From the NCBI GenBank assembly GCA_025964685.1, contig JAOPYG010000004.1, positions 1 to 59,672 on the forward strand: a stretch of 59,672 nucleotides of DNA, written 5' to 3'. This DNA is from Actinoallomurus sp. (GTDB taxonomy: Bacteria > Actinomycetota > Actinomycetes > Streptosporangiales > Streptosporangiaceae). Under the pieces are notes generated by a model. It was not told where the DNA came from, made no database searches, and saw only the letters and a program-made list of their open reading frames with translations. The position numbers and the translations under genes are program-made. Of the stretch, positions 29,651-53,838 are shown one piece after another (positions within the stretch are counted from its first letter, which is position 1; each line of letters starts with the position of its first letter).

Positions 29651-29988
29651 GAACTCAATGTCCCCTTAGCGGATCGACACCGATGAAACACGAGATGAAG
29701 AACGGCTCTCATGGCCGGTCGTCTCCGGGCGGAGAGGCGTCAATGCCTGCCGGTGCTGCGGTCCACGCTGTCGCGGGCATCGGGCGAGACGGCGGTGTCC
29801 GTGCCGACGGGCCGTTCGGTGGCCTGCGGGCCGGTGCCGGTCGCCGGGTGCGGGCGGGTGCCGGCCGTACGGCCACTGCGGACTCCGTCGCGGGTCGACG
29901 ACGATCTCGTGACGCTTGTCGCGACCGTCGGCGCGCACCGCAGGAATCGCACGTGTCCGTCCACCACTCCCGTGTCTCGCGACTGGGC

Positions 29989-50218: not shown

Positions 50219-50296
50219 TAGCGCGACAAGGAAACGAACGCCGAGGTGACCATAGTGTGTCTTGCCGCCGCGGCGGCCGCGTCGCACGATCGGGGC

Positions 50297-50374
50297 ATGA
50301 TGCGCAATTGCTCGTGTGGACACGGGTCGAGCTGTTCCTGCCCGAAGGGCTGCTCCTGCGGGTGCAACGGCTGA
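50297..50374 (+). CDS. Candidate mini-metallothionein (25 residues, 7 cysteines)
   Basis: A 26-codon frame (ATGATG start) encodes a peptide with seven cysteines arranged CxC-x5-CxC-x3-CxCxC, with the remaining residues mostly Ser and Gly, plus one His and one Lys. From memory, the Neurospora crassa copper metallothionein is also about 25 residues with seven cysteines spaced CxC-x5-CxC-x3-CxC-xx-C, so the first six match exactly. A GGGG lies just before the start. A longer frame from GTG 50246 (42 residues) is an alternative. It sits beside a MarR gene and a Cu/Zn-type efflux permease. Expression and metal binding are untested inference. Confidence 0.55.
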   Translation: MMRNCSCGHGSSCSCPKGCSCGCNG

Positions 50375-50395
50375 CCCTCAGGCCGGTGCGTCCGG

Positions 50396-50875
50396 TCAGT
50401 CCTCGTAGTCCGTGGCGCCCAGCCGGTTGAAGCGGGCGAGCATGTCGGCCAGCAGCCGTACGTCGGCGACGGGCCACGTGCCGAGGAGCCCGTGCCAGCG
50501 CTCCCGGCGTGCGCTCCGCGCGCTCTCCAGGCGGCGCCGTCCCTCTTCGGTGAGGACGAGGATGTGGGCGCGGCCGTCGGCCGGGTCGGGCTCACGTTCG
50601 ATCAGGCCCAGGTCGGCGAGCACCTTGAGCTGACGGCTGATCGTGGCCTTGCCGAGCCGGAAGTGCCCGGCGAGGTCGCTGGCGCGCGCCCGTGAGTGGT
50701 CGTGGATTCCGGTGAGCAGGCCGTACGCCTCGGGGTCCAGGTCCGGATGGACCTGGCGGCCCATGTCGGCGGACATCGCACGGGCGCGGCGTAGGAGCGT
50801 ACCGAGTTCGCGTTCGATCTCGTCGAACGCGTGGTCGTCGGTGACGCGCGGCTGGGTCGCTTGTGCTTCTGTCAT
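50396..50875 (-). CDS. MarR-family regulator next to metal permease
   Basis: This 159-residue protein has a MarR winged helix (ASDLAGHFRLGKATISRQLK, wing DPADGRAHILVL). It lies 65 bp downstream of the permease on the same strand and converges on the seven-cysteine peptide gene. No cysteine-rich metal site is visible in it, so it may respond to something other than metal. A GGT-TGCTAG-ACC-like imperfect dyad lies in its upstream gap. Confidence 0.92.
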   Translation of the reverse strand: MTEAQATQPRVTDDHAFDEIERELGTLLRRARAMSADMGRQVHPDLDPEAYGLLTGIHDHSRARASDLAGHFRLGKATISRQLKVLADLGLIEREPDPADGRAHILVLTEEGRRRLESARSARRERWHGLLGTWPVADVRLLADMLARFNRLGATDYED

Positions 50876-50940: not shown

Positions 50941-52104
50941 CTAGGGCGACCCGTGATGCGCGGTGTCGTCGCCCTCTGGTGAGCCGCCCATCATCTTGAG
51001 CATCGGGATGCCGCCCGTACGGACGAAGCGGACCAGCAGCACGGCCGCGAGGAGCAGGAAGGCGAGGTTGAGCCAGGTCGTGTAGTTCCACGCGATGTGC
51101 TCCTCCATCACCGTCGCCCGGCGCTCCCGCGGAATGAGCCCGGCGACACCGAAGATCAGCTCCACCAGGTAGCCCGCGATGACCATGGCGGCGTAGAACA
51201 CGCCGGTGATGAACAGGGCCATCCGCAGGCCGTAGTACTTCCGGTAGATGTTGATGATCGGCAGAATGATCAGATCGCCGAAGATGAAGGCGATCACGCC
51301 GCCGAAGCTGATGCCGCCGTTCCACAGCACCGCGGCCAGCGGCACGTTGCCGATCGAGCAGACGAAGCTGACCACGGCGACCAGCGGACCGACGAGCGGA
51401 CCCCACAGCGCGGCGGCGAGCGGATGCCCGGTCAGGAAGAAGTGCCGCCAGAACGAGTCCGGAACCCAGGCGGCGACCGCCCCGGCGATGAGCAGCCCGA
51501 CGATCAGGTCCCGCAGGATGGCCGCCCACTCCATGACGAAAACGTGCGAGACGGCGGTGAACGCCTCGCCCGACAACAACCTCCGCCAGAACGATCCTTG
51601 CCGCTGGACGGCCATGTCCATCGCCGCGTGCCCCTCCATCGACCCGGCGATCCCGCGCTCGGCCTGTGCCCGTGCGTCCCGCAGCAGCCGCTCACGCAGG
51701 AACAGCCGGAACGCCAGCGCGACCACCACGATCATGATCGGGCCGCCGACGAACTCGGCCGCGGTGAACTGCCAGCCCATCAGCAGGGTCAGTACGATGC
51801 CGAGCTCGATCACCAGGTTGGTGGACGCGATCTCGAAGGCCATCGCCGCCGTGAAGCTCGCGCCCTTGCGGAACAGCGACCGGGCCAGCGCGACGGCGGC
51901 GTACGAGCAGGACGAGGACGCGATGCCCATCCCGGTCGCGATCAGCAGCGTGCGGGGCCGGTCGTCCCCGAGAAGCCGGACGATCGTCGACCTGCGTACG
52001 ACGGCCTGCACGACCGCCGACAGGAAGAACCCGAGGATCAAAGCCCACAGGATCTCCCAGGTCATCGACCCGGCAATCGCCAGGGCATGCCCGATCGCGC
52101 TCAT
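50941..52104 (-). CDS. Permease of the SO_0444/DUF318 Cu/Zn-efflux type
   Basis: This 387-residue protein has about eight to ten hydrophobic helices in two halves. Each half has a conserved cysteine motif: GIASSSCSYAAVALARSLF and VVSFVCSIGNVPLAAVLW. The family (YraQ-like, SO_0444) is linked to copper/zinc or arsenic-type efflux. A His/Met-containing loop (MEGHAAMDMAV) lies in the middle and the tail ends in HHGSP. The start has GGAAGG eight bases upstream. A CsoR-like palindrome lies 44 bp before it, so copper control is likely. Confidence 0.87.
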   Translation of the reverse strand: MSAIGHALAIAGSMTWEILWALILGFFLSAVVQAVVRRSTIVRLLGDDRPRTLLIATGMGIASSSCSYAAVALARSLFRKGASFTAAMAFEIASTNLVIELGIVLTLLMGWQFTAAEFVGGPIMIVVVALAFRLFLRERLLRDARAQAERGIAGSMEGHAAMDMAVQRQGSFWRRLLSGEAFTAVSHVFVMEWAAILRDLIVGLLIAGAVAAWVPDSFWRHFFLTGHPLAAALWGPLVGPLVAVVSFVCSIGNVPLAAVLWNGGISFGGVIAFIFGDLIILPIINIYRKYYGLRMALFITGVFYAAMVIAGYLVELIFGVAGLIPRERRATVMEEHIAWNYTTWLNLAFLLLAAVLLVRFVRTGGIPMLKMMGGSPEGDDTAHHGSP

Positions 52105-52147: not shown

Positions 52148-52162
52148 TACCCCCTGGGGGTA
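52148..52162. promoter_or_regulatory. TACCCCC-T-GGGGGTA dyad, CsoR-type operator
   Basis: A perfect 7-bp dyad of a C-tract and G-tract flanked by TA matches the class of pseudo-palindromic operators bound by CsoR/RcnR repressors, which sense Cu(I) or related signals. It lies 44 bp upstream of the permease start. No csoR gene is in the window, so the repressor would be encoded elsewhere. Confidence 0.65.
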
Positions 52163-52938: not shown

Positions 52939-53838
52939 GTGTTCGTGAAGACATCTGAAGATCGCGTGGTGGCCGCTGGCGACAGCGTAGTCGCCCGCCG
53001 GCGGCGGGCGGAGTTCGATGCGTTGATGGGTCGGATCGCGGGCCGGTTCGGGCGGATGGAGCCGCGGCGTACGGCACGGGCGTATGTGACCGGGTTGTTG
53101 TCGGGTATCGAGCGCGTATTGGCCGTCGCCGGCAACCGCAGGGTCGGCTCCAACGGCGCCTGGGTGCCGGTCGCCGACATCACCGGTGCCACCGCGCCCC
53201 GGCTCTGGCACCACTACGGCTCCGGACCCGGCGCCAAAGGACCCCGCCACCACGACTGGGCCTGGACCCCGATCGACCCACACACCGACGGGCACCGATG
53301 GCCGCTGATCCGACGCAACCCCAAAACCGGGGAACTGGCCTACTACCGCTGCGACGGCCCACACCCCGTCCCACTGCTCACCTTGGTGCGCACCGCCGGG
53401 ATCCGCTGGAGCATCGAAGAGGCATTCCCGACCGGCAAAGGCCAGGTCGGCCTGGACCACTACCAGGTACGCACCTGGACCGGCTGGCACCGCCACATCA
53501 CCCTCGCGATGCTCGCCCTGGCCTTCCTCGCCACCACCAGCCCACCGGCCACCCCACAACAAATCGCCCTGACCATGCCCGAGATCCGACGCCTGCTCGC
53601 GGTGCCTGCCGGTGCCTTTGGCAGGGCGGGCCGACCTCGGCGGTGGGTCCGGCCTCATCGGCCTCAGGGATGCGTCGAACCGCTCGGGGGCGACATCCAG
53701 ATCACGAGCCTCCGGGTCAGGGGCACGTCACTGCTGATCAGGATTCCAACACACAGCGAGACCAATGGACGGGAGGGCGCCCAGGCGAGTGTCAACCGTA
53801 CGTCGTTTTGGATGATCAGCCGCCCAGACATTCCGTAA
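52939..53838 (+). pseudogene. Decayed IS701-family transposase with internal deletion
   Basis: The first 50 or so codons (RRAEFDALMGRIAGRFGRM, then EPRRTARAYVTGLLS) match the N-terminus of IS701-family transposases. The frame then jumps to the C-terminal third (WPLIRRNPKTGELAYYRC, GIRWSIEEAF, GLDHYQVRTWTGWHRHITLAML). The central 200-250 residues holding the first catalytic aspartates are missing, and the normal C-terminal end is replaced after EIRRLLA. The frame has stayed open, but the protein cannot be an active DDE transposase. It marks an old insertion between the metal locus and the conservon. Confidence 0.8.

Follow-up and report, generated by a model that had tools for sequence, protein, structure and literature searches.

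Metallothioneins of bacteria are described as rare, and the mycobacterial copper metallothionein MymT, a 4.9-kDa protein, came to light as an ORF that had not been annotated (PMC7558416). In fungi, the family 8 metallothioneins have the pattern X2-[CXC]-X5-[CXC]-X3-[CXC]-X2-C-X3 (PMC4755600). The locus described here, found in the window (the whole stretch of 59,672 nucleotides of Actinoallomurus DNA that was analysed), invites comparison with both of these and with the zinc metallothioneins SmtA/BmtA. Its small ORF (Table 1) translates into MMRNCSCGHGSSCSCPKGCSCGCNG followed by a stop, and the translation bears out the original prediction of a 25-residue frame with seven Cys in the order CxC-x5-CxC-x3-CxCxC. 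The peptide contains no Phe, Tyr or Trp and its Cys stand in CxC groups; a CxC-dense arrangement and the absence of aromatic residues are typical of metallothioneins, a class whose members hold multiple d10 metal ions in clusters of thiolates. The remaining residues had been called Ser/Gly-type filler only, which was slightly off, since a His and an Asn are conserved and Pro and Lys are often present as well.

In size and Cys arrangement the peptide resembles the Cu-thioneins of Neurospora crassa and Agaricus bisporus, which are likewise Gly/Ser-rich and carry seven Cys, the first six identically spaced. The claim of the same size, Cys count and first six spacings thus stands for the Cys number and for the first six Cys, with 25 residues against 26, and fails at the last spacing (2,6,2,4,2,2 in the window peptide against 2,6,2,4,2,3 in Neurospora). 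This last gap is a single residue (x1) in the window and in 20 of 20 strong matches, whereas it is x2 in fungal family 8, whose pattern the peptide therefore does not fit, and the actinomycete peptide has in addition its conserved His and Asn. The local score against the Neurospora metallothionein was reached by 5 of 5000 shuffles of the full composition, whereas with the Cys positions fixed it was reached by 1398 of 5000 and 7319 of 20000 shuffles of the non-Cys residues. Because the similarity vanishes once the Cys positions are held, the likeness lies in the Cys spacing, and convergence on a CxC scaffold is the simpler reading. Homology with the Neurospora protein was rejected, as nothing beyond the Cys spacing rose over the shuffles. 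The name "fungal-type" is accordingly dropped: besides the different last spacing and the extra conserved His, the residues between the Cys are no closer to Neurospora than shuffled ones.

MymT, whose hallmarks are up-regulation and a requirement for copper resistance, shares with the peptide that it is a small, Cys-rich, actinobacterial protein and, as had been stated, it is longer (4.9 kDa against 25 residues; PMC7558416), about twice the size, in a comparison made by size alone. SmtA and BmtA are also bacterial and combine Cys with His. The window peptide differs from them in that neither its 25-aa reading nor a 42-aa one matches any Pfam or NCBIfam family at E ≤ 1, a search in which HMMER filters can drop such short queries, and the zinc-finger fold of SmtA probably needs more than 25 residues. 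The peptide also matched no PHROGs family at the limit used, and its profile gave no match in a PDB profile search, which is perhaps too insensitive for so short a profile. No prior description of the peptide family appeared in titles and abstract openings among the matches listed, a set that does not cover subscription papers.

Table 1. Features of the peptide locus and its surroundings in the window.
Feature	Position	Strand	Basis and remarks
Conserved block, promoter region plus ORF	50242..50376	+	Pairwise blastn blocks of 133-142 bp; orientation kept where flanks are inverted
Upstream element GGTGACCATAGT	50245..50256	+	By eye; retained in some Actinoallomurus; may be a regulator site
Putative -35 element TTGCCG	50262..50267	+	By eye from upstream regions; 17-nt spacer to putative -10
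Putative -10 element CACGAT	50285..50290	+	By eye; weak, not TANNNT; 6 nt before ATG
Micro-metallothionein-like ORF (MMRNCSCGHGSSCSCPKGCSCGCNG)	50297..50374	+	25 codons plus stop; translation, relatives, codon-position bias, sharp conservation edges
MarR-family regulator, neighbour	50396..50875	-	Pfam MarR; outside the unit; near the peptide in 3/8 Actinoallomurus loci
ArsP_1 (PF03773) permease, neighbour	50941..52104	-	Pfam, 267.6 bits; outside the unit
Perfect palindrome TACCCCCTGGGGGTA	52148..52162	.	Upstream of permease; CsoR-family-like; assigned to permease

The peptide proved to be conserved well beyond the window. A single-sequence search gave a strong match in 8 of 8 genomes of the window's genus (its own genome counted), and all seven Cys are kept in the 20 distinct strong matches (20/20) that this and a family-level search produced together, so that the conservation in close relatives on which the original prediction was to be judged held up. 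A larger set of 61 distinct loci was selected by a pattern in which the Cys and CGHG columns are prescribed, so invariance in those columns is by construction; the penultimate Asn, in a column that the pattern leaves free, is nevertheless found at 61/61 loci. Three loci missed by the pattern, and absent from the 61-locus counts, also keep all seven Cys: in L079 the first loop is one residue shorter, in L094 Arg replaces Gly and in L095 GHS replaces GHG. Peptide length across the 61 loci is 26 residues in 39, 24 in 12, 25 in eight and 29 in two.

Differences among the 61 loci are biased by codon position, at 0.135, 0.094 and 0.292 per site for positions 1, 2 and 3. Codon differences were synonymous in 9397 cases and of other kinds in 4010, where 21.8% of the possible single changes would be synonymous, an excess that is inflated by the relatedness of the loci and by the selection pattern. 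Conservation is also sharply bounded: within genera, identity is 0.79-0.95 inside the ORF and falls to 0.35-0.37 over the 20 nt that directly follow the stop. Across the 40 loci of the Actinomadura group, the ORF has an identity of 0.91-0.95 and the 40 nt leading up to the ATG one of 0.62-0.70; the 20 nt past the stop are at 0.37, and the stretch between -200 and -120 is at 0.29-0.31, with comparable profiles in Actinoallomurus (8 loci; ORF 0.79-0.91) and Nocardiopsis (6 loci; ORF 0.89-0.93). The ATG is kept across loci and an in-frame stop lies within 15 codons upstream in 43 of the 61; for these reasons a GTG start at 50246 was rejected, which would give a 42-aa frame that is open in the window itself. 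As a side observation, codons 2, 4 and 8 from the first Cys are recurrently AGT (39/61), GGA (43/61) and GGA (31/61), at Actinomadura-group loci; such codons, unusual by eye in GC-rich DNA, may reflect a signal at the nucleotide level or shared ancestry.

At the family level, 17 of 150 genomes were strongly matched by a single-sequence search, five of them from the window's genus. Within the genus Actinomadura/Spirillospora (which includes Spirillospora albida), 63 of 65 genomes have a match, one apiece; the assemblies of the two exceptions consist of about 1050 and 600 contigs. When a 15-row alignment (A1) served as query, an order-level search reached 93 of 297 genomes at E ≤ 0.1, of which 81 were at E ≤ 7e-6 and 12 weak. 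Samples of the class and of the phylum gave 4/394 (one weak) and 13/396 (strong in the window's own genome only). We took the weak matches as chance, namely those in 12 of the 13 phylum-sample genomes, 1 of the 4 class-sample genomes and 12 of the 93 order-level genomes and six weak rows of the genus search; Cys-dense frames were sought in 17 weak-match loci and none was convincing. In the class and phylum samples the peptide family is nearly confined to the group described above. A scan of 84,980 species genomes, run with narrow peptide patterns that distant forms would escape, returned 51 loci, mostly from records named Actinomadura, along with Actinoallomurus, Spirillospora, three Nocardiopsis, two Nonomuraea, two Streptosporangiales MAGs and Pseudonocardia acaciae. 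Searching plasmid and phage collections with short peptides by tblastn returned nothing, a weak negative because the low-complexity filter may mask such queries.

From 42 upstream regions the arrangement CATAGACC-18-TACKTT-6-ATG was obtained, which suggests the promoter of a leaderless mRNA in the Actinomadura group. A TANNNT box with its last base at -7 is present in 40/40 loci of that group (related sequences, which are not independent) and in 0/21 others, all 8 Actinoallomurus included, against 1 of 1220 control positions; in Actinoallomurus the place of TACKTT is taken by CACGAT. The leaderless reading is weakened by a Shine-Dalgarno-like 4-mer within -18 to -4, which 16 of the 40 Actinomadura-group loci carry (control, 65/1098 positions). 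Nocardiopsis has TTGAC together with a Shine-Dalgarno-like site in 6/6 loci. The window copy shows no evident Shine-Dalgarno, and the loose pattern occurs in one of the eight Actinoallomurus loci; with a non-consensus box as well, a leaderless start in the window is possible, with the box weak, but a guess. The promoter element GGYCATAGACCG was considered as the mark of a regulon and rejected: of the 8 genomes searched, 3 carry it at the peptide locus, 2 carry it at another place and 3 lack it, so that no regulon emerged. Neither a strict CsoR-like box, TACCC-N(2-6)-GGGTA, within 150 bp, nor a Zur-like box was found in any of the 61 peptide promoters (0/61 for each), which makes the gene look unlike an inducible detoxification gene.

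In Actinoallomurus, the peptide behaves as a unit of promoter and ORF. When L028 is compared with L029, and the window with L028 or L031, a block of 133-142 bp, running from about 55 nt before the ATG to +80, aligns one way and the conserved flanks align the other. Between L032 and L033 a 134-bp block stands isolated between collinear flanks, and in the pairs window/L029 and L029/L030 it extends into one flank. In the comparison of L028 with L029, where the block is inverted relative to the flanks, the permease and MarR genes are on one side and an AfsR-like regulator (named by eye) is on the other.

The neighbourhood bears directly on the proposal that the peptide and the gene next to it form a compact detoxification module, in which the peptide would buffer Cu(I) for the adjacent permease and both would be under a CsoR-type repressor. 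The permease was detected near the peptide at 5 of the 8 Actinoallomurus loci; both relative orientations occur, and in one case it is at a contig edge 5.2 kb off. Upstream of the permease there is the palindrome TACCCCCTGGGGGTA, which we take to be CsoR-family-like from its motif and which is seen at 4/4 loci with a readable permease start (window, L028, L029, L030), two of them imperfect. In addition, a looser CCCC-N(0-4)-GGGG is found within 120 bp of three of the 61 peptide starts (L056, L064, L088). The CsoR-like operator of the original prediction is a palindrome that belongs to the permease, and it has no strict equivalent at the 61 peptide promoters. Likewise, the supposed Cu/Zn-efflux-type permease is instead a PF03773 protein that scores 64.6 bits on the SO_0444 Cu/Zn equivalog model, far under the cut-off of 300. 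Linkage to it is limited to 5 of the 61 loci, all in Actinoallomurus: with neighbour genes called by a simple script, the permease cluster and the MarR gene were detected at 0/53 other loci, 46 of which are flanked by 3 kb or more of sequence on either side, and the neighbours of the peptide in Actinomadura, named by eye, include no metal genes. The peptide block is, moreover, inverted relative to the permease between species. The window's genome has two CsoR-family genes, one of them on another contig at L148 (G000:C18:2142-5757), where a 303-aa ORF on the opposite strand separates it from a P1B-type ATPase that has an HMA domain; L148 is likely the conventional copper system of this genome. 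With neither a strict operator at the peptide promoter nor a conserved transporter linkage, we regard the copper module as very unlikely. Two further observations were made by eye on neighbouring genes. Near the permease, an ORF at 52939-53838 of the window resembles part of a transposase. In Nocardiopsis, a COG0523-like GTPase gene lies upstream, about 1-4 kb from the peptide, in L041, L043 and L045, as does one for an S18-type ribosomal protein in L041 and L045; genes of both kinds are often zinc-regulated, a possible hint at zinc in some Nocardiopsis.

Two other explanations concern the peptide itself. The ORF is very short, and longer ORFs called mechanically overlap it on each strand, so it could be suspected of having arisen by chance, or as a side effect of coding on another strand, and of being no gene; yet the conservation, the codon-position bias and the sharp edges all fall on this one frame. 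Its Cys pattern is also improbable by chance: about 9e-5 occurrences are expected in the 7.6-Mb genome on both strands (from an independent TGY frequency of 0.0247), and order-2 Markov sequence amounting to 7.16 million strand-bases gave 0 matches. Six Cys within 20 open residues occur at a single other place in the six frames of the window (29745-29748). We consider a chance origin extremely improbable, and the frame almost certainly a real gene. Cys-rich peptides can also have redox or regulatory roles, and the peptide could be a thiol micropeptide for redox or signalling (a partner of a regulator, or a buffer of persulfides or oxidants) and not a metal store. The absence of a metal operator at the 61 peptide promoters would agree with such a role, as would the C-terminal Asn (61/61) and the Gly-His-Gly, which are perhaps beyond the needs of a plain metal sponge, but the density of CxC and the lack of aromatic residues are typical of metallothioneins. 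A redox role seems unlikely to us, if less so than the copper module.

Our preferred reading is a minimal bacterial metallothionein with its own promoter, which would buffer a thiophilic metal independently of the neighbouring genes; we give it a probability of about 75%. We hypothesise that the frame encodes a peptide of 24-29 residues (61 loci) that would be transcribed from its own promoter and translated from a leaderless mRNA in the Actinomadura group, possibly likewise in Actinoallomurus, and from a Shine-Dalgarno site in Nocardiopsis. The seven thiolates, probably joined by the conserved His, would enclose soft metal ions in a small cytosolic cluster, and buffering of the metal would be a housekeeping function, apart from the neighbouring genes. 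Counting against this model, the TANNNT box is missing from 21 of the 61 loci, among them all those of Actinoallomurus. From its residues, the peptide probably binds metal ions; Cu(I) and Zn(II) come out nearly level as candidates, Cu(I) being slightly favoured. Cu(I) is suggested by the CxC density and by the first six Cys, which share the spacing of the Neurospora Cu-thionein; in favour of Zn(II), His is common in bacterial metallothioneins.

A parallel to the peptide was met in uncultured viruses. Scanning viral contigs with A1 led to three AT-rich contigs in which EDCSCGHGSxCxCGPxCGCGCNxVNE stands inside larger proteins of 455 aa (L150:1948-3315), 216 aa (L151:2470-3120) and 309 aa (L152:127-1056). 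A second scan, with the three viral sequences, gave 24 loci (L153-L176), with the first three contigs among them and some mutually near-identical. The spacing of the seven Cys is the same throughout the 24, as is CGH (23 as GHG, one as GHD), and the DCGCGHG forms (L153, L166, L169, L171, L172), which the DCSCGHG pattern could not reach, still keep CGHG. The viral module, DCxCGHGxxCxCGPxCxCGCN, therefore agrees with the peptide in the spacing of seven Cys, in CGH and in CN, and differs in being embedded in larger proteins with acidic flanks. The window peptide shares 7-8 of 13 non-Cys residues with L150-L152, and its non-Cys score against the three sequences is reached by 28-72 of 20000 shuffles, a figure that is biased, as these rows were found by patterns demanding such residues. 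The three module proteins have no Pfam match; in PHROGs they match either weakly or to families without a known function, the best match being that of L152 to phrog_24078 (E 1.7e-8, unknown function), and L150 matches a tail tape-measure PHROG family (E 2.7e-4). Two whole viral proteins had no relative in the phage collection. The similarity between viral module and actinomycete peptide could be due to homology or to convergence. As a tentative proposal, to which we give somewhat less than even odds, CxCGHG-x2-CxC-x3-CxCGCN may be an undescribed metal-cluster module of seven Cys and one His in about 20 residues, present as a free micro-gene in actinomycetes and built into proteins of uncultured viruses.

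If this proposal is true, CxCGHG-x2-CxC-x3-CxCGCN would rank with the smallest metallothioneins that bacterial genes encode, and would be a fold-on-metal unit shared by cells and viruses. For chemistry, the peptide would offer a very small natural metal-cluster peptide in which the choice of Cu(I) against Zn(II) and the part of a single His could be addressed. At the level of the genome, it is a case of a micro-gene that retains its own promoter amid rearranged surroundings. This micro-metallothionein-like gene was probably overlooked for its size, and a metallothionein of 24-29 residues that is nearly universal in both Actinomadura and Actinoallomurus would point to small size as the reason why genes of this kind escape notice.
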